A stretch of DNA of 61,867 nt from Lachnospiraceae bacterium (GTDB taxonomy: Bacteria; Bacillota; Clostridia; Lachnospirales; Lachnospiraceae), in contig JAGAQJ010000048.1 of the NCBI GenBank assembly GCA_017622845.1, positions 1 through 61,867 of the forward strand. Direction: 5' to 3'. The position numbers were made by a program, and so were the translations under genes. Under the pieces are notes generated by a model. That model saw nothing but the letters and a program-made list of their open reading frames with translations. It searched no databases and had not been told where the DNA came from. Positions 38,286-58,531 of the stretch are shown in pieces. Every line of letters starts with the position of its first letter. The stretch's first letter is position 1.

Positions 38286-38454
38286 GCCATCACCTCCGTT
38301 AAATCTTTATGTGGCAATGGTTGTACAATATTAGCGTTCCTGTGTGATAGTATCTTTGTATCTATGCTGTGCTCCTTATATGTAATAAATTGCGATTCAT
38401 GCATTGGATGTATTTTTTATCCCCAAAAATCATAAGATTATCAGGAGGTGCTGT

Positions 38455-40005
38455 ATGATAATAGGAATATACCCGCGTAAATCCGTCTACAGAGACAACA
38501 GCGACTCTGTAGCGGTTCAAATCGAACTTTGCAAGGAATACGCCGCTATTATTTTTAAAGGACAGGAAATCGTTTTTAGAGTGTATGACAGGGATGAAGG
38601 GTTCAGCGGAAAGAATACGAAACGCCCATCCTTTCAGGAGTTGATGCGCGACGTAAAGAAAAACGAGCTTGATGTAGTAATGGTCTATAAGCTTGACCGT
38701 ATCAGCAGGAATGTCCGGGAGTTTTCGGCGATGTATGAAACTTTTGAGGAACATGGTGTCGCATTTGTATCTGTCAAGGAGTCGTTTGATACCTCTACAC
38801 CAATTGGACGAACCGTCATGTACATATTGGCTGCCTTTGCCCAGTTAGAGCGTGAGAACACGTCTGAACGTGTCACAGACAATATGCTTGCCCTTGCGGA
38901 ACAGGGGCGCTGGACAGGCGGAAACTGTCCGGCAGGAATGAAATCCGTCCGTAAAAAGACAGGCGATAAGGAACATTCTTTTCTTGATGTGGACAAGGAT
39001 TCCATATGGCGTGTGAAGCTATTATACAAGCTGCTTTTAAATGGCTATACCATCACCGGGCTTGAACGCTACTGCAAAAGTCACGGGATAAAAAGTCAGG
39101 GCGGTGCATTTCTCAATTCGTCACAGATTTATACGATTGTCACAAATCCTGTTTACTGTCAAAATTCACTTGAAGCCTATTCCTACTTTCAGGAACTCGG
39201 CTGCAAATTAGCTCCCAGGGAACTGTTTGACAGCAGTCATGGCTGCATACGCTATGGCAGAACGAAAACAGGCCGGGAAAAACAGACAGCACAGACTCAT
39301 GAACACTGGACAATTGCTGTTGGGCTGCATGATTATGTTGTATCTGCATCCGACTTTATCGCTGCACAGAAGCGCTTGGGCATCAACAAAACGTTTCGAT
39401 CAGGAAAACATCCGGCAGGTATTCTAAAAGGTGTTCTGACTTGCAAATGCGGCGCCAAAATGACAGCGCGAACTTATGTAAAAAACGGTATTCAATTCTC
39501 TTATTATTACTGTGACAAACGTGTCCGTCAGGGGAAAGAATATTGTGATTCCAAATATGTCCGTGTAGATATCATTGATGAGCTTTTTTTAAAACAGCTA
39601 AGGAATATTAGAATCAATCCGGATTTTATAAAAATACAAATCATGGATACCAATGAAGCAGATGTCGATACGATGTACGCTGAACTAAATGCGATAAACA
39701 TACAGCTTGGCAACCTCGCAAAGGCATTATCCGAAAATTCTTCTTCGTCCGCTGCCAAATATATCATAGCACAGATGGAGGAGCTGGACAAACAGCAGGC
39801 AGCATTAAAAGCCTCAACAGCCAAAGCTGAGCTGATGGCAGAAAACAAAAAAACGGCTGTCAACAACAGGCAGCTTGTGTATGAAAATGTCTGCTATCTT
39901 GTTGACAACCTTGATCAATTATCGTATTCTGAAAAAAACGAATTAGTCCGCAGGACTGTCAAATCCTGCAGCCTGCAAGGAAAGAACCTGAGCATCATCT
40001 TCTGA
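38455..40005 (+). CDS. Large serine recombinase
   Basis: A 516-residue protein. N-terminal resolvase domain with catalytic Ser in IYPRKSVYRDNSDS (about residue 8) and arginines in LDRISRNVREF; middle Recombinase domain; zinc-ribbon TCKCGAKMTART with YYCDKRVRQGKEYCDS (about 323-366); C-terminal coiled coil (about 400-475). The ATG at 38455 has GGAGG six bases upstream. It normally integrates and excises a mobile element. Here no cargo is seen apart from the small divergent gene, and its 3' end abuts a truncated peptidase gene. Confidence 0.93.
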   Translation: MIIGIYPRKSVYRDNSDSVAVQIELCKEYAAIIFKGQEIVFRVYDRDEGFSGKNTKRPSFQELMRDVKKNELDVVMVYKLDRISRNVREFSAMYETFEEHGVAFVSVKESFDTSTPIGRTVMYILAAFAQLERENTSERVTDNMLALAEQGRWTGGNCPAGMKSVRKKTGDKEHSFLDVDKDSIWRVKLLYKLLLNGYTITGLERYCKSHGIKSQGGAFLNSSQIYTIVTNPVYCQNSLEAYSYFQELGCKLAPRELFDSSHGCIRYGRTKTGREKQTAQTHEHWTIAVGLHDYVVSASDFIAAQKRLGINKTFRSGKHPAGILKGVLTCKCGAKMTARTYVKNGIQFSYYYCDKRVRQGKEYCDSKYVRVDIIDELFLKQLRNIRINPDFIKIQIMDTNEADVDTMYAELNAINIQLGNLAKALSENSSSSAAKYIIAQMEELDKQQAALKASTAKAELMAENKKTAVNNRQLVYENVCYLVDNLDQLSYSEKNELVRRTVKSCSLQGKNLSIIF

Positions 40006-43625: not shown

Positions 43626-44176
43626 ATCTCAATCCTCCAAAAATGGTGTCAATAATTCTTATTAATATGTTTCAATTTATTTCCAATTATTACAAAATTG
43701 TTACACCCATGAAATAAATTATCACAAATTCTTATAGTTGTCAAGATATCTTATAAACAAACAGTTCTGAAAGATAAATTCTTTTTTGTCTGTCCTTTTT
43801 AGAGAAAATTCGTTTTTCACATTTTTTATGAAACCGCCTGCAGTTATCCACATCCTCTGGCTGTGCTTTGCCACTGGAAACTTTCCGGGCATATTTCGTT
43901 CATTTCATTCTTCGCAGGCATCACTTCCTTTGTGATACTCAGGTCAATTAAATGACTTGTTGTTTTCTTGAACTTTGGATATGTCTTCTGCTTTTGTTTT
44001 CAGTCAAAGTCACTCGCACAGCTGCTTTATCATATCTGATATCTGCTGCATCAGGTAATGCTTCTTCATTGCTGCGGCATCAAAACTACAGGCATGGGTA
44101 ATATCAATGATTGACAAATAGACAAATCATAAACAGACACTCATAATTGATTAAAAACAAAGGAGAGTGCCTGCTT
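43626..44176. other. Intergenic region before the tyrosine recombinase
   Basis: No gene recognised. Contains a perfect DnaA box TTATCCACA (43844-43852), a TTGACA (44111-44116) without a well-placed -10, and a change to lower GC, which marks the left limit of the accessory island. Confidence 0.45.
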
Positions 44177-45109
44177 ATGAATACTTTAAATGACTATATT
44201 ACAGAATATCTTGAATATTGTGAGTACCGAAAACGCTTAGATTCCAAGACTCTAAAAGCTTATAAAACAGATTTAAAACAATACAATACATATTCCTGTG
44301 ATTTGCATGAATGCTTATCAAGGAATACGGTAGATATCTTTATTACCGAACTGCATAAGCAATACAAACCTAAAACTGTTAAGAGAAAAATTGCAAGTCT
44401 AAAAGCTTTTTTTCATTACATGGAATATAAGGATTTGCTGGAGGAAAACCCTTTCACCAAACTGGATGTACATTTTCGAGAAGCAAAGCTTCTCCCTAAG
44501 ACGATTCCTTTTCACTCCATACAAAAGTTTTTATCGGTGCTTTATGAGCAGAAAAAACAGGCAGCATCCGAATATCAGCTCCGCTGCAGTATCCGGGATA
44601 TTGCCGTTATTGAACTGCTTTTTGCTACAGGCATGCGCATATCTGAACTATGCTCCCTGAAACCATCGGATATCGACTTAGAAAGTAATACTGTATTGAT
44701 TTACGGAAAAGGGGCAAAGGAAAGAATCTTACAAATCGGAAATCCGGAGGTGATTTCTGCCTTAATTTTATACCAGGACACCTTTAAAGAAGACATCAAT
44801 GCCTGCGGATATTTTTTTGTAAATAAGCTAAAACACAAATTATCTGACCAGTCTGTCCGTTTTATGATAAACCGATACGCAGAGCTTGCCGGTATTGAGC
44901 AGCATCTTACACCCCATATGTTCCGGCACTCCTTTGCTACGCTTCTCCTGGAACAGGATGTAGATATACGTTATATTCAGAAAATGCTCGGACATAGCTC
45001 GATTAGTACAACGGAAATTTATACGCATGTATCGAATAATAAGCAGAAGGATATTCTTGTAAATAAGCACCCCCGGAACCTGATGACCCCAATGAAGGAT
45101 AATATATGA
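44177..45109 (+). CDS. Tyrosine recombinase (Xer/phage integrase type)
   Basis: A 310-residue protein with an N-terminal core-binding domain (about 1-95) and a catalytic domain with all expected residues: Arg in ATGMRISELCSL, Lys in GKGAKERI, HMFRHSFATLLLE (His and Arg), GHSSISTTEIYTH (His and the nucleophile Tyr). GGAGAG lies nine bases before the ATG at 44177. The stop codon and last codons lie within a 24-bp sequence repeated in inverse orientation at 50558-50581. This is the arrangement of an invertase next to the DNA it flips. Confidence 0.93.
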   Translation: MNTLNDYITEYLEYCEYRKRLDSKTLKAYKTDLKQYNTYSCDLHECLSRNTVDIFITELHKQYKPKTVKRKIASLKAFFHYMEYKDLLEENPFTKLDVHFREAKLLPKTIPFHSIQKFLSVLYEQKKQAASEYQLRCSIRDIAVIELLFATGMRISELCSLKPSDIDLESNTVLIYGKGAKERILQIGNPEVISALILYQDTFKEDINACGYFFVNKLKHKLSDQSVRFMINRYAELAGIEQHLTPHMFRHSFATLLLEQDVDIRYIQKMLGHSSISTTEIYTHVSNNKQKDILVNKHPRNLMTPMKDNI

Positions 45110-45114
45110 TTATC
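45091..45114 (+). repeat. 24-bp inverted repeat, left copy (putative inversion site)
   Basis: Perfectly matches the complement of 50558-50581; flanking bases differ on both sides. It contains a core of GATAAT, a 5-bp centre ATATG and ATTATC, the symmetric arms expected of a tyrosine recombinase crossover site. It overlaps the last codons and the stop codon of the recombinase, so inversion would leave that gene intact. Confidence 0.88.
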
Positions 45115-45116
45115 CT

Positions 45117-46346
45117 CTACTCATTTACTAAGCTCCCATCCTTAGACAGAATAATTTTTTTCCCTTCCCACGTTTCAAAAAGGATATTTCCGTCAGAGAG
45201 TTCTTGATAATTCCGATAATTTAAGGGAATTTTTCCTGCCCCACGCGGAGCATTTAAAACATAAGTAGGAATTGCTAAACCGGAGGTATTTCCTCTTAGA
45301 TGTTTCATTATATCTAGTCCTGTTTGAATAGATGTTCGAAAATGGGTAGTCCCTATTATATTTTTTGCATGAAAAATGTAATAAGGTCGGATACGAATTT
45401 TTAATAAGTTTTGATTTAGCAGCTGAACGACATATTTGTCATCATTTATACCGTTTAGCAATACCATTTGATTTCCAAGTACAAAGCCGTTATCCGCAAG
45501 CAGATTGCATGCATAAGTTGATTGTGGCGTAATCTCCTGTGGATGATTGAATTGCATATTGATATAAATCGGATGATATTGTTTTAATCCGTTAACTAAG
45601 TCTTCCGTGATTCGTTGTGGAACAACTACTGGCATGCGAGTTCCTATTCGTATAATTTCAACATGAGGAATGGAGCGTATTTCGGCAACAATTTTTATTA
45701 ATACATCATCTTCAAGGGTTAGTGGGTCACCTCCGGTAATAAGAACATCGCGGATTTCTGTATGCTCTTTTATGTATTGGATAGACTGCGCTATTTTATC
45801 CTGTCCGGTAACAAAATCCTGTGTACCGATATTGCGTCTCCGTTGACAGTGACGGCAATAGGAACCACAGGCATTTGTTACATTGATAATTAAACGATCG
45901 GGATATCTTCTTGTAATAGCTCCGGTCGGATTATGTCCTGCTTCATCCATAGGATCAAATTCGCCGTCAGCGGATAGCTCTTTTATGTCAGGGATAGCTA
46001 TTTTGCGAATTGGATCCTGTGGATTTTGGGGATTAATCAGCGAAATATAGTATGGGGAAATTGCCCAGCGAAAGTAAGATTCTACTTTTTTTATGCATTG
46101 AATTTCATTATCTGACAATGGTAGAATCTGTGAGAGTGTTTGAACGGAACAAATTCGGTTATTAATTTGCCAATGCCAGTTGTTCCATAAATTTTCATCC
46201 GCATGAAAAAGGTTAAGAATTTTTTCCTGCTGTTTTTTAGCTAAAATCGTTTGCAAATGGTTTGTTCCTACAGGAATATCCTTTTGGGCATTTACAAAAT
46301 TGCATGTGTAAGATTGTAATTGCATATCACGTTGTTTATTTTTCAT
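45117..46346 (-). CDS. KamA-family radical SAM aminomutase
   Basis: A 409-residue protein. The radical SAM cluster motif is CGSYCRHC (Cys about 160, 164, 167). Also GGDPLTLEDD, RIGTRMPVVVPQRI, and a PLP-binding lysine region in APRGAGKIPLNYRN. These match lysine/glutamate 2,3-aminomutases, which use SAM and PLP to move an amino group from alpha to beta. The substrate cannot be assigned. AAGGAG lies nine bases before the ATG. Only 35 bases separate its start from the divergent TIR gene. It may supply a beta-amino acid to the ATP-grasp ligase in the same invertible segment (inference). Confidence 0.9.
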   Translation of the reverse strand: MKNKQRDMQLQSYTCNFVNAQKDIPVGTNHLQTILAKKQQEKILNLFHADENLWNNWHWQINNRICSVQTLSQILPLSDNEIQCIKKVESYFRWAISPYYISLINPQNPQDPIRKIAIPDIKELSADGEFDPMDEAGHNPTGAITRRYPDRLIINVTNACGSYCRHCQRRRNIGTQDFVTGQDKIAQSIQYIKEHTEIRDVLITGGDPLTLEDDVLIKIVAEIRSIPHVEIIRIGTRMPVVVPQRITEDLVNGLKQYHPIYINMQFNHPQEITPQSTYACNLLADNGFVLGNQMVLLNGINDDKYVVQLLNQNLLKIRIRPYYIFHAKNIIGTTHFRTSIQTGLDIMKHLRGNTSGLAIPTYVLNAPRGAGKIPLNYRNYQELSDGNILFETWEGKKIILSKDGSLVNE

Positions 46347-46381
46347 TTTATTTTTCTCCTTAAGATATGAGAGGTTGGATT

Positions 46382-47161
46382 ATGTGTAAAACATTATTTG
46401 ATGTAGCTTTTTCATTTTCAGGCAAAGAAAGAGATTTTGTCAGGCAGGTAAAAGACTATTTGGAACAAAGGAGTATCTCTGTTTTTATGGACGAAGATCA
46501 TTCCATTACAATTTGGGGTAACGACCTTGAGAAAACCTTTGAATATCTGTATGGCGGTCGCGCCAAATATTACATTATATTTGTTTCGGAAAATTACATA
46601 AAAAGCCTAAACACAGTCTTCGAATTTTCTGCTATGTTAAAAAATCTTCATGAAAAAGGAACCTCCAATATTCTTCAAATTTTTTTGGACGATACAACAT
46701 TGAATTTATTACCTCCTATTGGTGCAATTAAAATTAATGATTATGACAGCCAGCGAGCTGGCGAGCTGATTGTAAAAAAAATACAAGGTGAATCGCTGGA
46801 CAAGGTTTTTCAGTATCTGATTCAGCGACTGGATGAAGAATGTAACAATAAATATTCGAATAAAATATTATGCAGTAAAAAGCAGGAAGGCATTTATTGT
46901 TTCTCAAACTCTCACAATCCAAAACGTTGTTACAGAATACAAATCCAGTATATGTGTATTAATGATTTTGAAAAAATCCTTGTATATGACAGTTTTTCAG
47001 AAACTGGAAATACTATGACATTTCCAACCGGCGAAGTATACAAAGATAATGGCAAAATGTTATTTTTAAATTACGGTTTTTGTTGTGACAACTATCAATT
47101 CGAAATAACGTCAAAGCAATTGCTACAGCTTATAAATGAAAAAATTATACAAATAAAATGA
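46382..47161 (+). CDS. TIR-domain protein
   Basis: A 259-residue protein. An N-terminal TIR domain (about 1-135) starts LFDVAFSFSGKERDFVRQVKDYL and contains a DEDHSITIWGNDL loop, YYIIFVSENYIKS and the candidate catalytic Glu in NTVFEFSAM (about residue 81). Bacterial TIR domains split NAD or make cyclic ADP-ribose-type signals in phage defence. The C-terminal half is not recognised. The start at 46382 has GAGAGG upstream; a frame starting five codons earlier is less likely. The gene is coupled to the STAND-like gene downstream (8-base gap), whose ribosome binding site GAGG overlaps this stop codon. Confidence 0.82.
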   Translation: MCKTLFDVAFSFSGKERDFVRQVKDYLEQRSISVFMDEDHSITIWGNDLEKTFEYLYGGRAKYYIIFVSENYIKSLNTVFEFSAMLKNLHEKGTSNILQIFLDDTTLNLLPPIGAIKINDYDSQRAGELIVKKIQGESLDKVFQYLIQRLDEECNNKYSNKILCSKKQEGIYCFSNSHNPKRCYRIQIQYMCINDFEKILVYDSFSETGNTMTFPTGEVYKDNGKMLFLNYGFCCDNYQFEITSKQLLQLINEKIIQIK

Positions 47162-47169
47162 GGTGCAGA

Positions 47170-49563
47170 ATGGTGTTTTCAAATCAGAAAAGCTGTCAAA
47201 CAAAGTTAACAAATTTTTATGAAAACTGTACTACAACAACTATGGTATTAGTCCAAGGACATAAAGGAACAGGAAAATCTGCCGCTATATTAAATTTTTT
47301 AAAAAAGAAAGAGAACATTATTACTTTTCATTCCACTGGTTTTGAACAATCTAAGCTGCAGGTAATTGAAAATGCTTTAAGAAACTATGCCAGAAACAAT
47401 TTGGACAATCATAATCACTTTGAAGATGACGGATTAACATATGATGAAAAGCTCATCAGATGGATGCTTAAAGTTGCAAGTGAAAATGACATTATTTTTT
47501 ATTTTGAAAACATAAATAAATGGAATTTAGCTTTGTTGTCATTTGTACAGCATTTTCTTGATTTACTTACAGGAGAATATACATTTCATAAAACATTTCT
47601 TATTTTCAAATTAGATAATGACGATGATGAATATCTGAAAATGCAGGACGACTTTCGAGAATTTTTTGCTGCAATTCCAGATTTGAAATTTATTAATTTT
47701 AAGAAAATCCCAAACCCAGAGTTAAGGGATTATTTACCTGTATTGCTGGGAGGCGAACAGAAAATAAGCCAGAAGCAAATTAACTGTATTGTTGAAGCTG
47801 CATCAGGTAATATTGCATTACTCAGACTGATTATTATTTATCTGCAGCAGGCAGAATATCTCATGTGTGATGATAACAATGTATGGACATGCCGCGAAAT
47901 TTCTGCCAGAGTGTTACTGGAAGCAGTAAAAAACCATATCCAACGCCGATATAGTAAATTAGAGCAAACTCTTAAAGATACCTTAAAAATTTCTACTCTT
48001 TTGGGAATAGAAATCAATCCTGATATTCTGGAAGAATCATTTCAATTAATTAACGCCCAGGATAATCTGGAATTAATTGAAAAGCTTTCAAATCTGTTAA
48101 TTAAATCTCAGGAGACCGACCAATATAAATTTGAAAATACGGAAGTATATTATTATATCAAAAATAAATTATCCAATGATGAAAAATTGCGCTGGTGTCA
48201 AACTCTATTAAAATATTATCAGGCTCAGCGTAAAGAATTATCGGGCTCAAAAAAACATTCCATATACACAGATTATGATTTGAATGCTCTCGAAATCTCA
48301 ATGATGGAGGTCAGTTCCATAGGTGGGTGCTTTGAAGAATCTTTGCAAATACTGATGTCCTTAAGCACACGCTGTATCAATATTCTTAATTTTGAACAGG
48401 CACTGGAACTTTTGGAAAAATACAAATTTGTTTATAATATCATCAATATTGATCGTTCTATACAGTGCACTTTTCTTACTCAAAAAGCATATTGTATGGA
48501 ATCATTGGGGCAATACGAAAATGCAAAAAAGGTATATGAGGAATGTATCGAAAAATATAGCAATAAGTTTTTAACCTTTTTTGAAGAGTATTATCAATAT
48601 AAAATTGCATATTGTACATATTACATGAGCGATGTAAATGCTGCTTTCTCGCTGGCTGACAATGTATATCAAAGGTTAAGCGCGAATAGACAGACACATT
48701 TATTATATTTCCAGACTGCTTCTCTTCTTGCCACTCTTTACAAAGAAAAAGGCGATTATGACAATGCCCTGGCTTTTTTTAACAACACGTTGCAATGCTG
48801 TATAAAAAATGGATATGAAGAGGAATACTATGTTCAACTCAGGAAATCCTGTCTTGTTATAGAAATGGAAATGGCCATTCCCATGCTCCGGAAAAGCGTA
48901 GATTACTTTCAGGAAAAGCAAAATATTAAAGAACTTGCCAAAGCGTGCCATAACCTTGGAAGTAATTATCTTTATACAAACGAAAAAAATCAAGCTTTTG
49001 AAATGCTTAACAATGCCCTTAAAAATTTTAAATCATTTGGTAGTAATGATGTCGTGGTGCCAATCAATAACTTAGGTATTTGGTATGCCATGTATGAAGA
49101 TAATATCGCTGAAGCCTTGAAACTTTTTCAGCAGGCCCTTACGTATAAGCTTAATAGTTATAAGCAACTAACTATCTTATCTAATGTTGCAATATGCTAT
49201 TTGATTCAGCAGGATTACGACAACTTTCGGGAAATTTTGCGTCAAATTGAGGGTAATTCAGGAATATCTGTCAATAAAGCTATCCCTTACTACCAAACAG
49301 TATCGGATTTATTAAAAGCGTTAGCTGATTATCATTATGGCAATCTGCCTGCTGCCGCCAATGGTTTTATAAAAATATTGAATAATCGGGTTACTAACCG
49401 CCAGCGATTTTTGTTATCGAATTTCATAACTGATATAAATCAGATAACTCCTGTTATGGTTCCGACTGAAATAACAGAGTGGAAAAATATTGCGCCCAAT
49501 TATTTATTTCAGCTATATTATCAAAGAAGAATAATGTTTCGTACACTGCGTTTTGTTGAGTGA
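47170..49563 (+). CDS. STAND-like P-loop ATPase with TPR-type repeats
   Basis: About 797 residues. Walker A GHKGTGKSA near residue 30, a Walker B-like IIFYFENINK near 110, and helical modules of AAA/STAND type to about 360. The rest (about 400-797) is a long helical array with TPR signatures, for example LGQYENAKKVYEECIEKY, KGDYDNALAFFNNTLQCC and ACHNLGSNYLYTNEKNQAFEML. STAND ATPases with repeat arrays act as sensors that oligomerise after target recognition. Here the effector could be the TIR protein encoded just upstream (inference). ATG 47170 has GAGG six bases before; an ATG at 47158 overlapping the TIR stop is the alternative. Confidence 0.82.
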   Translation: MVFSNQKSCQTKLTNFYENCTTTTMVLVQGHKGTGKSAAILNFLKKKENIITFHSTGFEQSKLQVIENALRNYARNNLDNHNHFEDDGLTYDEKLIRWMLKVASENDIIFYFENINKWNLALLSFVQHFLDLLTGEYTFHKTFLIFKLDNDDDEYLKMQDDFREFFAAIPDLKFINFKKIPNPELRDYLPVLLGGEQKISQKQINCIVEAASGNIALLRLIIIYLQQAEYLMCDDNNVWTCREISARVLLEAVKNHIQRRYSKLEQTLKDTLKISTLLGIEINPDILEESFQLINAQDNLELIEKLSNLLIKSQETDQYKFENTEVYYYIKNKLSNDEKLRWCQTLLKYYQAQRKELSGSKKHSIYTDYDLNALEISMMEVSSIGGCFEESLQILMSLSTRCINILNFEQALELLEKYKFVYNIINIDRSIQCTFLTQKAYCMESLGQYENAKKVYEECIEKYSNKFLTFFEEYYQYKIAYCTYYMSDVNAAFSLADNVYQRLSANRQTHLLYFQTASLLATLYKEKGDYDNALAFFNNTLQCCIKNGYEEEYYVQLRKSCLVIEMEMAIPMLRKSVDYFQEKQNIKELAKACHNLGSNYLYTNEKNQAFEMLNNALKNFKSFGSNDVVVPINNLGIWYAMYEDNIAEALKLFQQALTYKLNSYKQLTILSNVAICYLIQQDYDNFREILRQIEGNSGISVNKAIPYYQTVSDLLKALADYHYGNLPAAANGFIKILNNRVTNRQRFLLSNFITDINQITPVMVPTEITEWKNIAPNYLFQLYYQRRIMFRTLRFVE

Positions 49564-50529
49564 TTATTTTTGGCGTTTCATGGCACTTGCTACTATTCTA
49601 TCTAATATCGTGCTGCTGCTGATATCTGACAGTTTACAGCATGTATGAAAAGAACCGCCTGGTTGTAAGGATGGTAGTGGTGCCATTTCCAAAAAGAAAA
49701 TCTCGTTTTCGGATGTGAGTCGGAAATCTGCCCTGCCAAAATCATTACATTCTAAATAGCGAAAAAGCGTTTCGGCATATGTGCCTAATTGGTGCGCAAC
49801 ATCTTCCGGAATATCAGCCAATTTTTTGCTTACCATATGAGTATGTTTTAACTTTGCATCATACAATGCAACAGGACTTCCATCCGGCATAGTTGTCTCT
49901 AAAATATTTACTGCATGTACGCCGTTTTCATCAGCCAATAACGGAACCTGTATTTCTCTTCCTCTGATATATTTTTCACACAATACGGGTTCGTGGTATT
50001 CCGTTAACAGATGCTTAATTGCTTTTTCTGCTTCTGCCATATTTTTAGCCAAATACACACCCATGCTGCTTCCTTCTGCTCTCGGCTTTAATACAACTGG
50101 AAAAGGAAATGGAAAATCAGCCGGAAAATCCGTTTCACTGGAAATTTCTATGTACATTGGTGTGGGGATATTTAAGTATGTCGCTGTTAATTTTGTTTGA
50201 AGCTTGTCCAGACAAAGAGAGCATCCATACGCATCTGAACCGGTAAAGGGGATACCAAATGCTTCCAATAACGCAGCCATTAATCCCTCCCTGTTGCGTC
50301 CTTTAAATCCCCATGACATATTGAAAACTAAATCAGGGGCCTTATTCCCATTACATAAATATTGGATAACCTGATTACAGTTTCCGAGTAAGAAGACGGA
50401 ATGCCCCATTTCTTCTAAAGTGTTTTTCAAAAAACTTACTTCTGACGCAGATATAAAATCGCAATGCTGCACATCAAAATCTTCGAAACCATATTCGTTT
50501 TGTATATCATAGGTAAGTCCTATTCTCAT
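49564..50529 (-). CDS. ATP-grasp ligase, D-Ala-D-Ala ligase-like
   Basis: A 321-residue protein. The N-terminal pre-ATP domain leads to VFNMSWGFKGRNREGLMAALLEAFGIPFTGSDAY (family HGxxGEDG region altered). Then come PVVLKPRAEGSSMGVYL, KYIRGREIQVPLL and a C-terminal metal site in FGRADFRL with EIFFLEMAPLPSL. Similar to D-alanine-D-alanine ligases, but the missing canonical HG(P/C)xGED suggests another amino substrate. Convergent with the STAND gene with no gap. In the same segment as KamA; joining of a beta-amino acid to a second amino acid is plausible (inference). Confidence 0.85.
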   Translation of the reverse strand: MRIGLTYDIQNEYGFEDFDVQHCDFISASEVSFLKNTLEEMGHSVFLLGNCNQVIQYLCNGNKAPDLVFNMSWGFKGRNREGLMAALLEAFGIPFTGSDAYGCSLCLDKLQTKLTATYLNIPTPMYIEISSETDFPADFPFPFPVVLKPRAEGSSMGVYLAKNMAEAEKAIKHLLTEYHEPVLCEKYIRGREIQVPLLADENGVHAVNILETTMPDGSPVALYDAKLKHTHMVSKKLADIPEDVAHQLGTYAETLFRYLECNDFGRADFRLTSENEIFFLEMAPLPSLQPGGSFHTCCKLSDISSSTILDRIVASAMKRQK

Positions 50530-50557
50530 AATTTAATTATATCCCCCTTTATTTACC

Positions 50558-50581
50558 GATAATCATATATTATCCTTCATT
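50558..50581 (-). repeat. 24-bp inverted repeat, right copy (putative inversion site)
   Basis: The exact reverse complement of 45091-45114, in the gap between the ATP-grasp gene (start 50529) and the TIR-SLOG gene (end 50671). A TATAAT-like sequence follows on the minus strand directly before the ATP-grasp start, so the junction may matter for its expression. Confidence 0.88.
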
Positions 50582-50670: not shown

Positions 50671-52509
50671 TCATTCTATTTCATTGAGTAAACGTCTAAT
50701 CATCAGCCTATGATTCACATTGTAGAATAAGTTTTCATTTAATCCCTTATCCCAAGAGTTTAAATCAGACCAATTATTATTTGTTATCTTTTCATATGCA
50801 TACTCACTGGAACGTCCGCCTACTGTACCAACTAAAGCAACTGGAATATTGACACTTCTTGCCAGCTCAATCTCTGTATCTACGCCTTGCTGACCTTTAT
50901 CTTTTTTTATTTTTCCTCCCAGACAAATTAACAACTCGCTTTTTTCCCTGCATATCATTCTTTCACGCATCTCCTGCAATCCATCAGATAACACAAGCGT
51001 ACACTTTTCTTCAAGTTCCCTCAAATCATATTCCCCGATATATGCCCTATCCATATGCATCTCAATGGAATATTTTACATCAGAAGAATATAATTTTCCT
51101 ATGTCAAATATAAGTTTTTGAAAAGTCGGATGTGCGCCGAAAACCAAAATATATCCATTTTTAATTATTTCGCGGGCATATATTGAGACTGCTTCTAATA
51201 ATGAATTTTTGTAAATTTCATCATAATCCGGAAATGCTCCTGAAAGAATAATTCTCTTATTACGTTTGGGTCTCTTAATGCCTGATACATTTTCAAGGTT
51301 CATAATGTAATCATCAAAGTTTTCTTCTATTACCTTAATATCTCCAATCGGCTTTTCTCTTTGTCCGTGATTAGAAAGCAGAAATATTCTATCGCTTTTT
51401 TCATATGTTTCTTCTTTTTTTACTTTTTGAATAAGCTTTTCTATGTCTTCCTTTTGGGGTGTCCTTCCAAAGCATTGTATATAATGTCTTCTGAGCCCCT
51501 TATCATATATATCTTTTGTATTCTCTACATATTCTACCTCATATGCCAATGCAGCCTTCTTATCCCCAATTAATTTAATCTTATCCGCATCACTCAAATC
51601 CCTCAAATATTCAATATACGAATATACTTGATTAGAAGAATTCATAATAAGCTGAAAACATTTTTCTTCTATCTCATCCACAATTTCGCTCAATCTATCC
51701 TGGCAATCAAACTCTTCACTACCATAGCTAAGCATAGGGTGTTCCCCCGGATGGATTTCCATGCTTGAGTAAGATGCATTATCAATTTGAATCCACAAAA
51801 TAGGAATATCATAAATCAGTGCATAGCATAATTCTTTCATAATATATGATGAATTCTGCGCTTCCTCTGTTTGTAAAAATATCAGCACATCACTCATCGC
51901 TAAATTTTTATCGATTTCTTTTTGTGCATCATCTCCTACTTCAACATTCACAACATCCCGATACACATTTCTTTCTCTTGTTAAATTTCTCAATTCATCC
52001 GCAAGCTTTGCAGCGATGTGTTCTCCATCACTACGCCGATGACTGATAAAATATAAAACTTCATCCCGGTATAATGGCGATAATGTCTGTGCGACAATTT
52101 TTCTGGCAAAAATCTGTGCAATCGCCCTCATATTGTTCTTCATTGGATTTCTATTTTCATGCCGGCATGACACATCGAAACTCTGTTTATCTGTTACCGG
52201 CTCCGGCGGACGCCTGCATTCCGGATTTCTTTCCATGGCTATTGCCCATACCCTGCTCTGAGCATCATTATATTTTTTTATCAGCCTAAGAAACTTATTC
52301 TCATACCTGCCATCTTCTGCATTAAAAAACACAAAAATGTCATTCGTATCAGCATTGCCTGCTAATAAGTGGTCAACTTGAAAAAAAGATGAAATATATG
52401 ATATATTGGTTACATATGTATTCAAGATTTCACAACACGATTTGAAAAATAAATTCGCATTATCCATTTTTTTCATTGTCAAATTGGGCGCACAAAAAAT
52501 TATCTCCAT
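50671..52509 (-). CDS. TIR-SLOG fusion protein
   Basis: A 612-residue soluble protein. Residues 1-140 resemble an additional alpha/beta domain (NDIFVFFNAEDGRYENKFL). A TIR domain spans about 149-245: VLYFISHRRSDGEHIAAKLADEL, DVVNVEVGDD, SDVLIFLQTEEAQNSSYIMKELCYAL, with the catalytic Glu at about 226. The C-terminal part (about 418-580) is Rossmann-like and fits the SLOG group: RIILSGAFPDYDEIYK, GYILVFGAHPTFQKLIFDIG, SELLICLGGKIKKDKG, VPVALVGTVGG-like IPVALVGTVGGRSSE. SLOG domains bind nucleotide signals such as cyclic ADP-ribose isomers in Thoeris. Here signal producer and sensor may sit in one chain (inference). It lies outside the right inverted repeat. Confidence 0.8.
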   Translation of the reverse strand: MEIIFCAPNLTMKKMDNANLFFKSCCEILNTYVTNISYISSFFQVDHLLAGNADTNDIFVFFNAEDGRYENKFLRLIKKYNDAQSRVWAIAMERNPECRRPPEPVTDKQSFDVSCRHENRNPMKNNMRAIAQIFARKIVAQTLSPLYRDEVLYFISHRRSDGEHIAAKLADELRNLTRERNVYRDVVNVEVGDDAQKEIDKNLAMSDVLIFLQTEEAQNSSYIMKELCYALIYDIPILWIQIDNASYSSMEIHPGEHPMLSYGSEEFDCQDRLSEIVDEIEEKCFQLIMNSSNQVYSYIEYLRDLSDADKIKLIGDKKAALAYEVEYVENTKDIYDKGLRRHYIQCFGRTPQKEDIEKLIQKVKKEETYEKSDRIFLLSNHGQREKPIGDIKVIEENFDDYIMNLENVSGIKRPKRNKRIILSGAFPDYDEIYKNSLLEAVSIYAREIIKNGYILVFGAHPTFQKLIFDIGKLYSSDVKYSIEMHMDRAYIGEYDLRELEEKCTLVLSDGLQEMRERMICREKSELLICLGGKIKKDKGQQGVDTEIELARSVNIPVALVGTVGGRSSEYAYEKITNNNWSDLNSWDKGLNENLFYNVNHRLMIRRLLNEIE

Positions 52510-54216: not shown

Positions 54217-54354
54217 ATGATTTCAGAAAAAATCAAATTTCTAAGAGAACAAAAAGAACTGGCACAATCTGATTTAGCAAAAAAATTGAATATCAACCGT
54301 TCTAGCGTTAATGCCTGGGAAATATGCCTAATATTAAGCCTATTTCAGATTTGA
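54217..54354 (+). pseudogene. XRE-family regulator, truncated
   Basis: A 45-residue frame reads MISEKIKFLREQKELAQ, then DLAKKLNINRSSVNAWE, the complete helix-turn-helix start. It is then cut at about 54320 and runs into the following gene in another frame. Intact members have 60 or more further residues. The junction with the antitoxin gene points to an old deletion. Confidence 0.7.
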
Positions 54355-54584
54355 GAAATTATACAGCAGTTATAAATGAGGTCACATACGGCAACAGAGT
54401 TTATTTAACCCGTAACGGACATGGACAGTGCGCCATCATAGATATGAAAGAATTAGACGAGCTTGACAAACAGAAAGCCCTTTATCAGCTTATGAGCAAA
54501 TTAAATGAGGCGGAAATCTCCATCCGTGAAGAAGGAACGGTATCCGCCGATGAGCTGGAAAAAGAATTGGGGGTATCGGTTTGA
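54324..54584 (+). CDS. Phd/YefM-family antitoxin
   Basis: An 86-residue protein, MPNIKPISDLRNYTAVINEV, then GNRVYLTRNGHGQCAIIDMKELDELDKQ, with a variable acidic C-terminus that binds the toxin. It overlaps the toxin gene by four bases (TTGA) and is thus translationally coupled. It is related to the partial protein at 1-123. It begins inside the truncated XRE frame. Confidence 0.88.
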   Translation: MPNIKPISDLRNYTAVINEVTYGNRVYLTRNGHGQCAIIDMKELDELDKQKALYQLMSKLNEAEISIREEGTVSADELEKELGVSV

Positions 54585-54928
54585 AAAAACTCGAATATTC
54601 ACAAATTGTTAGGCGCAAGCTGAAGGCGCTGAGGGTACGGCTGACAGATGAATTTGGTTCGGAAGCGGCAGGAAAAGCATTGAAGAGGATTACAGATGCA
54701 GCAAGGGGGCTTGAAGATTTTGCAGAAAAAGGTGTTTCTGTATCTTCGATGTATGATATTGACTGTGATTACAGATACCTTTATGCAGGACATAATTACC
54801 TGTTTTACAGAACAGAAAAGGACAAGATTATTATTGTTGAAATGTTCGATGAAAGGAAAGATTTTATGTATAAGCTGTTTGGTATCAGCTCAGTATCTCA
54901 GGAGTCCCGTGATTATTGGAATGAGTAA
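54581..54928 (+). CDS. RelE/ParE-family toxin
   Basis: A 115-residue protein starting at a TTG that overlaps the antitoxin stop. The pattern IVRRKLKALRVRLTDEFGSEAA then YDIDCDYRYLYAGHNYLFYRTEKDKIIIVEMFDERKDFMYKLFG is typical of RelE/ParE toxins (mRNA interferase or gyrase poison). It is controlled by the antitoxin upstream. Confidence 0.88.
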   Translation: MKKLEYSQIVRRKLKALRVRLTDEFGSEAAGKALKRITDAARGLEDFAEKGVSVSSMYDIDCDYRYLYAGHNYLFYRTEKDKIIIVEMFDERKDFMYKLFGISSVSQESRDYWNE

Positions 54929-55689: not shown

Positions 55690-57072
55690 TTAATCAACAT
55701 CTGGATCAATCCTAATATCAAATTCTCCTGCTGCCAATTCTTTCACAGTTTCATATGTAAAATCCACATTAGTTATGTCGAATCCATCTTCTGGTTCTCT
55801 TGTTATATCTTCGAAACTAATTGCCATGTCAACTATCACAGTTCCTTCAATACAAAAATCTACACTTCCAATATGACTTACACCCCTATTTACATATTCT
55901 GAAACTTCCACACTTCCATAAATTGCATACTCAGCCTCCAGATAAAATAATCCTAATGCTCTGTCATATTCAAATTTAATCGGTGCTGTTATATTTTCAT
56001 AGGTTATATCCAAATCATCTACACCTTCAAATGTTCCTCCGAAAATGTAAAAACCCGAATCATAAAATACTCTATATATGCTGTCCAATTCGTTGAAATG
56101 TTCGTCTATTTGCTGAATTAATATATCATCTTTCTTTTCATCAATATACTTTAATACTGCTTTCTCAAATTTTAGCTTCTCTATCAAATCATTTATCCTT
56201 GCTTCCAGTAATCCCATTGCTTCTCCATAATGCTCTAGAAAAGCCAAAAAATTACAAACCTCAATTTTGCCCAGAGCATTTGTTGCCTGATCATACTCTT
56301 CATACAGCACTGGAGCTAATTTTTTACCGCCTCTTTCACTAAACCAGTCTTTCTTTTTCTCATCCTCGATAAAAAGTGTATTGATTTTGGTGCCGGTTAC
56401 TCTTCTTAATAACTCTTTCCATATAATCAAATCACCATATTTTCTATAAAAATCGCCACCATCAAAATCAGATTTCTTTTCTTCATCTGTAAATCCCGGT
56501 GCTATTTTGTATTTATAACGTATTTCTCCTTCCTCACATATTTGTGCTTTTTCCATAATTGTGAAATCCTTGGTTTGCGAATTTTCATATATCTCATCAA
56601 CAAGTTCACTTACAATATCTTCTTCACAAATAACTGCCAGTTCTTCTGTATAGATTCTTTCTAACTCTTCATATCCATTTTTAAATTTCTGAATAACTGC
56701 CTGAAAATCACTTAAAATAGAACTTTTAAGTTCTTCTCCATCGGTCCGTTGTTTGCGTCTAAAATTTTCAAATGTCTGTCCTACAATGTCCTTTGTTCTT
56801 TCCAATTCCTTAATACAATTTATACGAGCATTTTTATAATATTCAATTACCTCATCCTTCTTGCTTTTGGCATTTCTAGAAAACTCTCTATATACTTGAT
56901 TGGGTATCCAAAATTGTTCTTTATTTTCTCTGTTTTTTTCAACAATTTCTATCAATGCCAAGGGATGAATTGTGTATAGATTCAGCCAGACATTCGAATC
57001 CATTACAACCAATGTATCATCACTGTTAAATGCAATTGTTAATTCATAATCCACTTCTCTTTTGTCCGCCAT
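55690..57072 (-). CDS. PIN-like domain protein, putative nuclease
   Basis: A 460-residue protein. N-terminal PIN-like domain (about 20-250): TLVVMDSNVWLNLY with Asp 25, FWIPNQVYREFSRNAKSKKDE, and later acidic blocks DGGDFYRKYGDLIIWKELLRRV and TLFIEDEKKKDWF that complete a metal site. The middle is helical; the C-terminal part is rich in strands. PIN-like proteins of this type are predicted RNases of conflict systems. It is the last gene of a minus-strand cluster, 25 bases after the ATP-binding regulator. Confidence 0.78.
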   Translation of the reverse strand: MADKREVDYELTIAFNSDDTLVVMDSNVWLNLYTIHPLALIEIVEKNRENKEQFWIPNQVYREFSRNAKSKKDEVIEYYKNARINCIKELERTKDIVGQTFENFRRKQRTDGEELKSSILSDFQAVIQKFKNGYEELERIYTEELAVICEEDIVSELVDEIYENSQTKDFTIMEKAQICEEGEIRYKYKIAPGFTDEEKKSDFDGGDFYRKYGDLIIWKELLRRVTGTKINTLFIEDEKKKDWFSERGGKKLAPVLYEEYDQATNALGKIEVCNFLAFLEHYGEAMGLLEARINDLIEKLKFEKAVLKYIDEKKDDILIQQIDEHFNELDSIYRVFYDSGFYIFGGTFEGVDDLDITYENITAPIKFEYDRALGLFYLEAEYAIYGSVEVSEYVNRGVSHIGSVDFCIEGTVIVDMAISFEDITREPEDGFDITNVDFTYETVKELAAGEFDIRIDPDVD

Positions 57073-57097
57073 AATCTATACCTCTTTTTAAGCCCCT

Positions 57098-58531
57098 TTA
57101 TTTATCTTTTACTTGCCAATAACCACCTTTATTAGCACCAACTCGCACTAATATTCCAATATTCACAATTTCTTTCATGCTCTTCTTAACTGCACTTATG
57201 GAAATATTTAATTGCTCTGCAATTTCTGCCTGTGTTACCCTCGGCTCTTTCAAAATAATATCTACAATTTTCTGCTGTGTTTTATTAAGATTTTTTAGTA
57301 CACTTTTTGGTTCACTTTCTGGTGCACTTTTCGGTACATTTTGATAAATTTCATTATAAGATGGTCTATATAAATTCACCCTAAAGCTGTCACCAATCTC
57401 CAACAATTCCGGCTCTCTGATACCATATTCCTTGCAGGAGCTAAACATTCTCTTAATACCAGTTCCCCAGCTTTCGATAATTTTCATCCTGCTAAACACT
57501 TCTGCAATACATCTGTTGCGAATTTTGGAACCACCTTCCTTAATCTGCTCTATTGTCAGACCTCCATAAAGCATTCCCGGAGAAGTCACTTCTACTCTGT
57601 CATCATACACTGCTACCTGCACACAAGCTCTGTCTAAAAAATTTCTATGCGTTATGGCATTTACAATAGCTTCTCTGATGGCCTCCGTTGGTATTTCGTA
57701 TGCATCAGTTCTTACAAGACCATTTATCTCTGCTCCCAAATTGATATGCTTCAATACAAATTCATAGGCTTCTTCAATCTGCTCATAAAGCGGACCTTCA
57801 AAGTCTCTTTTGTCAATAAATACAACCCTTTCAGTACCTTTAAATAATGCACACTGAATTTTTGCAAATGGGAATGTATTATCCGTCAATAAAACAAATG
57901 CATTCGTCGGCACCAATGTTCCATCCATATTTTTAAGAACACCCCAATTAACCAGATTTTGTATTGTGACATCTTTTACTTTCTCTTTATCACTTTTCGT
58001 TCTTGCTGCTTCTACCATATAGTTTTTAATAGCAGCACACAATTCTTCTGCCTTCTCCGCATCATACTTCTGCTTTACACAGACCATCTCATCAAAAGAA
58101 TGATTAGTCCCCTGCAATTCTAAATCCTTCAAAATTGCTTCATCGTCAGGTCTTGATGTTCCGGACACTCTGATATAAGTACCTGATTCTTTTCCAAGTG
58201 ATTTGATATAGTATGGTCTACTTGCCCCTGGATATATTTCAACCACAATCACGCTCTTGCCATCAAGAGTATCTACCCCAATATTGGGAAATATCTGAGG
58301 ATAGCACATGTCTGAAATGGTATTGGTGATGTTGTCCATAATCTTAAAAACTTCATCCTTATCAACACCTACTATTTCATGTGTTTCATCATCCACGCCA
58401 ATAATAATCTTGCCACCTGCTGTGTTAGCAAATGCAATGACACTCTTTATATACTTTTCGCTTATCTTAGGAACTTCAACCTTAAACTCGATATTGGTTG
58501 ATTCCCCTGCCCTAATTTCATCTGCTAACAT
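57098..58531 (-). CDS. AlbA/Schlafen-type ATP-binding regulator with winged helix
   Basis: A 477-residue protein. N-terminal AlbA_2 domain (about 1-130: ESTNIEFKVEVPKISEKYIKSVIAFANTAGGKIIIGVDDE). Middle ATP-binding (HATPase_c_4-like) part with EAIREAIVNAITHRNFLDR and the GGSKIRNRCIAEVFSRMKIIESWGTGIKRM block. C-terminal winged helix (about 415-470: VTQAEIAEQLNISISAVKKSMKEIV). These proteins act as transcription regulators or parts of defence modules. It lies 25 bases from its neighbours on both sides. Confidence 0.9.
   Translation of the reverse strand: MLADEIRAGESTNIEFKVEVPKISEKYIKSVIAFANTAGGKIIIGVDDETHEIVGVDKDEVFKIMDNITNTISDMCYPQIFPNIGVDTLDGKSVIVVEIYPGASRPYYIKSLGKESGTYIRVSGTSRPDDEAILKDLELQGTNHSFDEMVCVKQKYDAEKAEELCAAIKNYMVEAARTKSDKEKVKDVTIQNLVNWGVLKNMDGTLVPTNAFVLLTDNTFPFAKIQCALFKGTERVVFIDKRDFEGPLYEQIEEAYEFVLKHINLGAEINGLVRTDAYEIPTEAIREAIVNAITHRNFLDRACVQVAVYDDRVEVTSPGMLYGGLTIEQIKEGGSKIRNRCIAEVFSRMKIIESWGTGIKRMFSSCKEYGIREPELLEIGDSFRVNLYRPSYNEIYQNVPKSAPESEPKSVLKNLNKTQQKIVDIILKEPRVTQAEIAEQLNISISAVKKSMKEIVNIGILVRVGANKGGYWQVKDK

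Follow-up and report, generated by a model that had tools for sequence, protein, structure and literature searches.

A 5.4-kb segment in the genome of a Lachnospiraceae bacterium probably acts as a recombinase-driven inverton, whose inversion would swap which of two gene units the promoters outside it read; we put the probability of this reading at roughly 0.78. The segment occupies positions 45091–50581 of contig JAGAQJ010000048.1 (assembly GCA_017622845.1), which was analysed over its full length of 61,867 nucleotides and is called the window here. Judged on sequence, the segment qualifies as an inverton: it is bounded by perfect inverted sites that share a crossover spacer, it adjoins a tyrosine recombinase, and both orientations were observed among relatives of other species. 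Comparison across related loci (L numbers; G numbers denote genomes) further brought out a family of such sites, spacers that agree within site pairs, contig breaks at the site, coherent strand use and differing cargo. The features on which the argument rests are as follows.

44119–44147, plus strand: promoter-like site TAGACA-17-CATAAT, a candidate left outer promoter (10/12 consensus; suggestive at most)
44183–45109, plus strand: XerC/XerD-like tyrosine recombinase, 308 aa from the ATG (Pfam Phage_integrase, 1.3e-43; the open reading frame opens at 44147)
45091–45114, plus strand: left arm, putative recombination site, with the core GATAAT-ATATG-ATTATC at 45098–45114
45117–46346, minus strand: KamA-family radical SAM enzyme, enzyme unit (Pfam Radical_SAM and LAM_C)
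46367–47161, plus strand: TIR-domain protein, immune unit (TIR_2, 5.1e-11)
47158–49563, plus strand: STAND-like P-loop ATPase with TPR repeats, immune unit (TPR_12, 1.7e-13; AAA_16, 7e-4, below cut-off)
49564–50529, minus strand: D-Ala-D-Ala-ligase-like ATP-grasp enzyme, enzyme unit (Dala_Dala_lig_C, 3e-27)
50558–50581, minus strand: right arm, putative recombination site, with the core at 50558–50574
50671–52509, minus strand: TIR-SLOG (STALD) protein outside the segment and pointing at it (TIR_2, 1.5e-8; STALD, 3.8e-5, just under cut-off)

Perfect inverted sites beside a tyrosine recombinase

A preliminary description of this DNA had proposed that perfect 24-bp inverted repeats flank the segment, each with a symmetric core, and both proposals are borne out. 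The arms are 24 nt each, 100% complementary and separated by 5443 nt; among the 25 longest of the 108 inverted pairs between 40000 and 56000 they form the sole perfect pair, the others being 70–90% complementary. The core GATAATATATGATTATC at 45098–45114, and its reverse complement at 50558–50574, match 12/12 arm bases. Besides the two arms, no further core scoring at least 11/12 occurs in the 61.9-kb window, for which a first-order Markov simulation (20 runs) gave an expectation of 0.5 such sites. A search for GATAATNNNNNRTTATC across the whole assembly returned one more match, on another contig and with a different spacer. Given the perfect arms and the lack of any other core scoring at least 11/12 in the window, we reject chance repeats as their origin. 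The stop codon of the recombinase (TGA, 45107–45109) falls within the left arm, so the gene would stay whole after inversion, just as had been anticipated.

The recombinase directly adjoins the segment and appears to have an intact active site: residues R154, K178, H247, R250, H273 and Y282, which we take to be catalytic and number by the first sequence of the alignment, are invariant across 16 aligned members. It scores below the NCBIfam equivalogs for the housekeeping enzymes XerD (242 bits against 329.6) and XerC (238 against 335.2). A second recombinase, 33% identical to it, is encoded elsewhere in the genome. In two related loci the match to the recombinase comes in two pieces (L090, 13148–14022; L091, 137–1020), which in L090 are two adjacent open frames; these represent either a disrupted gene or an enzyme made of two parts.

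A family of sites at recombinase genes

To place the window among its relatives, the recombinase was searched in 98 related genomes, a genome collection (587 relatives, of which the best 80 were used), viral contigs (9 loci, the first 3 used) and the regions around matches. At least 110 loci were collected, and removing 3 duplicates gave 107. Partial recombinases and those below 45% identity were then removed, leaving 101 loci, and setting aside 11 with less than 30 bp downstream left 90. The record titles are mostly Lachnospiraceae, with a few Treponema.

A site was defined as GATAAT-n5-ATTATC with at least 11/12 arm bases, located −30 to +300 from the recombinase stop. By this definition 55/90 loci have a site at the recombinase stop, compared with 8/1680 random upstream windows and 0/13 Xer-like control recombinases. 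In 34/107 loci the core begins 4 bp ahead of the point where the stop codon ends, and in L108 and the window 11 bp ahead of it, so that the site overlaps the stop codon. Where at least 6 kb of downstream sequence was available, 30 of 51 loci contained a site pair. The 5-bp spacer differs from locus to locus, but among 67 site pairs (0.3–9 kb apart) it is inverted-identical in 39, against 0.065 expected, and directly repeated in two (L080 and L108), pairs within nested loci not being independent. Site-specific recombination predicts just this, a spacer shared within a pair and varying among loci.

Some loci show further elaborations. Nested double sites, in which each end of one segment has two tandem sites with different spacers and the inverted repeats are longer, occur in L097, L106, L110, L125, L094 and L271. 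L080 contains a 1977-bp perfect inverted duplication (+258 to +7338 from the recombinase stop) that carries a pentapeptide-repeat-cluster gene and has sites at the copies. L108 contains, at +56 to +280 and +746 to +814 past the stop, a second, incomplete copy of the end of the cargo and of the 3′ end of the recombinase gene together with its site, which may be left over from an exchange that failed. A similar small gene, helix-turn-helix-like by eye, precedes the site in L209 (4094–4426), L210 (4118–4453) and L211 (9068–9403).

Both orientations occur among relatives

A search of related genomes for the segment in the opposite orientation found it. In the window, the forward recombinase is followed by KamA in reverse, TIR and STAND forward, and ATP-grasp in reverse; in L155 it is followed by ATP-grasp forward, STAND and TIR in reverse, and KamA forward, an exact flip. 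The proteins of the two loci are 47% (ATP-grasp), 29% (STAND), 21% (TIR) and 50% (KamA) identical. This evidence comes from relatives of other species, with one genome per species, and the window's own copy was seen one way.

At the nucleotide level, the cargo lies in opposite orientations in six locus pairs, namely L096/L126 (3344 bp), L150/L164 (2216 bp), L136/L150, L123/L142, L090/L168 and L155/window, and the same way in one, L136/L164; the six are partly dependent, as L136, L150 and L164 carry modules of a single kind. Among 28 same-strand alignments, 26 fall outside paired segments or in pairless loci, and the remaining two are those of L136/L164. An alignment search with ATP-grasp in 397 genomes of the family returned eight homologues besides the window's own: two in invertible modules beside a recombinase (L270 and L271), two on partial contigs with a site (L272 and L273) and four without a site (L274–L277). 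In L270 the cargo of L108 is present in flipped form (4917 bp, 81% nucleotide identity), and the recombinase and spacer differ from those of L108; L271 is likewise ATP-grasp-first. Across the six related modules, the unit next to the recombinase is thus the immune one in the window, L108 and L140, and the enzyme one in L155, L270 and L271.

Contigs often break at the site

Contigs stop less than 200 bp past the recombinase stop in 28/101 loci, whereas 2/101 stop within the 200 bp ahead of the recombinase start (p = 9e-7). Second contigs ending at a site with the same spacer were located by pattern searches, one in 12 and one in 13 genomes, and we compared ten end pairs drawn from nine genomes. 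The two flank contigs of G085 end on the last base of the site and have 23 bp in common, which is below usual assembly k-mers. In G108 and G109, both metagenome-assembled genomes, two flank contigs share their final 141 bp, made up of the site plus the beginning of a cargo gene; one cargo end therefore follows both flanks. Shared ends of 127 bp and 75 bp were found in G026 and G106, respectively; assemblers use k-mers of both 141 and 127. The ten comparisons are consistent with flipping in natural populations.

Two gene units on opposite strands

Segment architecture was counted for pairs downstream of a recombinase, leaving out those upstream of one or without one. The segments measure 1.9–7 kb between sites and hold two gene units, arranged as two strictly convergent blocks in 28/34; the exceptions are L103, L110, L112, L155, L176 and the window, although the window and L155 still have one gene class per strand. 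Where KamA and ATP-grasp occur together in an invertible segment (window, L108, L155 and L270) they share a strand in 4/4 cases, with varying gene order.

Pfam scans covered 56 of 109 cargo proteins, namely a main set of 50, two more and the window's four, and several matches lie below the curated cut-off; 9 of the main set of 50 had no Pfam match at E 0.01. For the window, the scans agree with the cargo first described, namely KamA (−), TIR (+), STAND/TPR (+) and ATP-grasp (−), with AAA_16 below cut-off. From the scans and protein clusters, we read the typical pairing as a sensor- or effector-like unit (TIR, SIR2-STALD/ThsA, STAND or NACHT ATPases, pentapeptide proteins) set against enzymes, which include ATP-grasp, KamA, radical SAM, glycosyltransferase, methyltransferase, serine hydroxymethyltransferase-like and aminotransferase proteins. 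Exceptions pair TIR with a small P-loop protein (L123 and L142), TIR with SIR2-STALD (four loci; two open reading frames in L144), and a polyprenyl synthase and FAD enzyme with an unassigned protein (L103). In the TIR/SIR2-STALD loci L136, L144, L150 and L164, Thoeris-like halves (SIR2-STALD ThsA-like, and TIR) are convergent on opposite strands and occur in both orientations. L136 gave a full-length ThsA match (5.8e-59) and the TIR of L150 matches ThsB (2.4e-12), while L144 and L164 were assigned by clustering. Beside a family recombinase in L074 (6839–12922), with a site at the contig end, we also observed an ABC-three-component-like set (MComp1/AAA_23, a weak trypsin match and a metallo-beta-lactamase fold).

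In the 30 bp just outside the site, 15/54 flanks have an exact TATAAT that points inward and 4/54 have one that points outward, where 8 of the 54 flanks come from pairs not downstream of a recombinase and some rows are related; these counts suggest that a subset of loci likely has an inward distal promoter. Promoter scores on the right side differ between the inward and outward directions (p = 0.004, 34 segments). When the site itself was taken as a −10 element, no consistent −35 was seen near it in flanks viewed by eye. A sigma-70 scan of the window region stood at chance level, with 44 promoter-like sites against 41.3 expected.

Proposed mechanism and objections

We infer that the adjacent tyrosine recombinase is the catalyst, exchanging strands at two inverted AATRAAG-GATAAT-n5-ATTATC-like sites. 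With one site built into the end of the recombinase gene, the 5.4-kb block would flip, in the window's copy as in others, and leave the gene intact. Its two opposite-strand units are the immune-like TIR and STAND genes and the genes for a glutamate-2,3-aminomutase-like KamA and a D-Ala-D-Ala-ligase-like ATP-grasp enzyme. Transcription would start mainly outside the segment, coming on the left from the recombinase side, while on the right the TIR-SLOG gene or a promoter that points inward would supply it; in the orientation seen in the window, the recombinase promoter would feed the TIR/STAND strand and TIR-SLOG the ATP-grasp strand. A flip would swap the unit read by each outer promoter, and expression would change such that clonal cells fall into two states. 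Start codons near the sites leave many segment ends without room for a promoter.

Several observations weigh against this account. A start codon lies within 60 bp of the site at just 27/67 segment ends, with the rest mostly within 180 bp, and the segments may contain internal promoters. Neither flank of the window has an exact TATAAT that points inward in the 30 bp beyond the site, and promoter scores upstream of the recombinase did not differ from antisense (p = 0.23, 34 segments). No site pair was found in 21/51 loci with at least 6 kb downstream, or in 20 once re-checking turned up a variant site in L161. Among the 30 loci with a pair, L121 and L166 have it upstream of the recombinase, and in L112 and L173 it begins 1.6–2.6 kb downstream. 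The pair in L095 has no family recombinase within 20 kb, and in L209 the recombinase is about 8.5 kb off. Since Thoeris requires both of its halves, which occupy opposite strands in four loci, strict either/or expression of the two units is doubtful. Inverted repeats longer than the k-mer could mimic the contig ends that share 75–141 bp, and strain differences in cargo could mimic those that end exactly at the site.

Exchangeable cargo and alternative explanations

The cargo of the slot varies even where its surroundings are conserved. TIR-SLOG homologues all point at the segment, whether they adjoin the site (L123, 82%) or lie about 2.6–2.8 kb beyond it (L108, 81.5%; L142, 70.5%; L140, 37%), and the window, L123, L142 and L108 have different cargo despite this shared side. 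In L069 and L112, the right flank is 96% identical from the site onward, with different cargo and spacers. L100 has a half-site followed by the flank of L117, and is apparently a cargo-less allele of it. As the slot holds other unit pairs elsewhere, the cargo is, on this comparison, exchangeable.

These same observations favour an alternative in which symmetric-ended cassettes are inserted or exchanged and enter either way around, with no regulatory flip in place, as does the presence of the same cargo in L108 and L270 between sites with different spacers. We consider this unlikely, though it is the rival to be taken most seriously. In G108 and G109, a single cargo end follows both flanks within one bin, and identical inverted sites near a recombinase would be expected to invert anyway.

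The possibility that the system is an integron-like element, with a recombinase that takes up cassettes lacking promoters at a site next to the recombinase gene, draws on the recombinase-linked site, the exchangeable cargo and a weak similarity to integron integrase models. It is very improbable, and we reject integron membership: the integrase models were matched at 115 bits (TIGR02249, cut-off 265) and 83 bits (NF011946, cut-off 435), and matching spacers were inverted in 39 and direct in 2 of the 67 pairs, contrary to directly repeated cassette sites. That the arms are operator or terminator-like palindromes controlling the flanking genes, as a short symmetric core with −10-like hexamers might suggest, is scarcely credible and is rejected, because spacers vary by locus yet are inverted-identical within pairs, and changes in orientation span the stretch between the arms.

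Inversion by the adjacent recombinase, with a change in the unit read from outside, thus remains our preferred reading. A further, rather doubtful extension of it is that each block divides a circuit for small-molecule signalling or immunity between its two strands, one encoding the maker and the other the receiver, so that inversion would yield producers and responders within a clone. The makers might be ATP-grasp/KamA, radical SAM or a ThsB-like TIR, and the receptor or killer STAND or a SIR2-SLOG ThsA, an assignment we hold to be equally tentative.

If the switch works as we propose, cells of a clone would inherit their anti-phage readiness in a reversible form that hedges bets, and some loci would uncouple the two halves of a Thoeris-like pair. 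If the split into makers and receivers were also true, it would constitute a genetic division of labour in bacterial immunity. The recombinase together with paired GATAAT-n5-ATTATC-like sites offers a genomic handle for finding new pairs of immune-type and enzyme genes, and the natural variety of spacers should be useful for testing the site rules of this recombinase family.

Genes in and around the segment

The nearest model for the window's KamA is glutamate 2,3-aminomutase (TIGR04368), matched at 560.7 bits and so short of its cut-off of 650; the protein scores over the cut-off of TIGR00238, with 305 bits. Elsewhere, KamA and ATP-grasp are co-directional neighbours without sites in four genomes (L274–L277), which supports the view that they form a functional pair. 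In L274 (7448–14623) and L275 (7658–15368) the pair is followed by large membrane proteins, and a SpoIIE phosphatase adjoins it in L274 and an HATPase_c_2 protein lies near it in L275. The start codon of the window's ATP-grasp gene sits 28 bp inside the right site. Glu86 of the TIR protein, presumably catalytic, is invariant in an alignment of seven, and the translated STAND protein contains a Walker A-like GHKGTGKS.

Outside the segment, TIR-SLOG matches the type III Thoeris model ThcB4 at 4.4e-15, with 55 bits against a cut-off of 220, and ThcA at 24.5 bits against 110, so that neither cut-off is reached; PADLOC ThsB and ThsA models match it weakly (1.2e-9 and 4e-5). The TIR protein within the segment matches no Thoeris model. 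Further out, a Phd/YefM-like antitoxin (below cut-off) and a ParE-like toxin form a pair at 54324–54928. A large serine recombinase at 38404–40005 and, on the other side, PIN_8 and SLFN_AlbA_2 proteins at 55690–58531 suggest a wider defence or mobile region around the segment.

Comparison with known systems

With its short inverted repeats and tyrosine recombinase, the segment resembles the tyrosine-recombinase invertons and invertible promoters of gut bacteria, including the RecV switches of C. difficile. In known invertons it is usually a short promoter segment that flips, often ahead of surface genes; here, in contrast, the sites enclose blocks of 1.9–7 kb that carry two gene units. PMC5386303, PMC7446863, PMC10939037 and PMC11892184 describe reversible inversion in such invertons as phase variation, and a term search within PMC11892184 found neither Lachno nor ATP-grasp nor TIR domain. 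We found no description of the present family in the open-licence PMC literature, subscription papers and preprints being outside its scope.

Other inversion systems share single traits with it. Hin and Gin are serine recombinases and the R64 shufflon is a multi-segment pilus system, unlike the XerC/D-like recombinase and single slot described here, which sets immune-type genes against enzymes. Hin/Gin-type inversion and the R64 shufflon join alternative genes to one promoter by inversion, according to passages of PMC8987985. Inversion of hsdS in S. pneumoniae, a phasevarion, generates population heterogeneity at a defence-type locus (PMC4948785); it shuffles the genes of one specificity subunit, whereas the units exchanged in the present family are unrelated to each other. 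In E. coli, inversion by PinQ alters phage resistance (PMC12529663), although PinQ is a serine recombinase acting on cryptic prophage DNA. Integrons likewise have a recombinase with a site at its own gene and interchangeable cargo, but in the present family the sites are inverted rather than direct, and integrase models are matched far under their cut-offs. Known Thoeris systems are co-directional operons, whereas the ThsA (SIR2-STALD) and ThsB (TIR) halves in L136, L144, L150 and L164 converge within an invertible block. What appears to be new is therefore the unit, an exchangeable slot with two oppositely oriented gene programmes: inversion, known for the promoters of surface genes, here appears to govern exchangeable two-unit cassettes in mostly Lachnospiraceae-labelled records.

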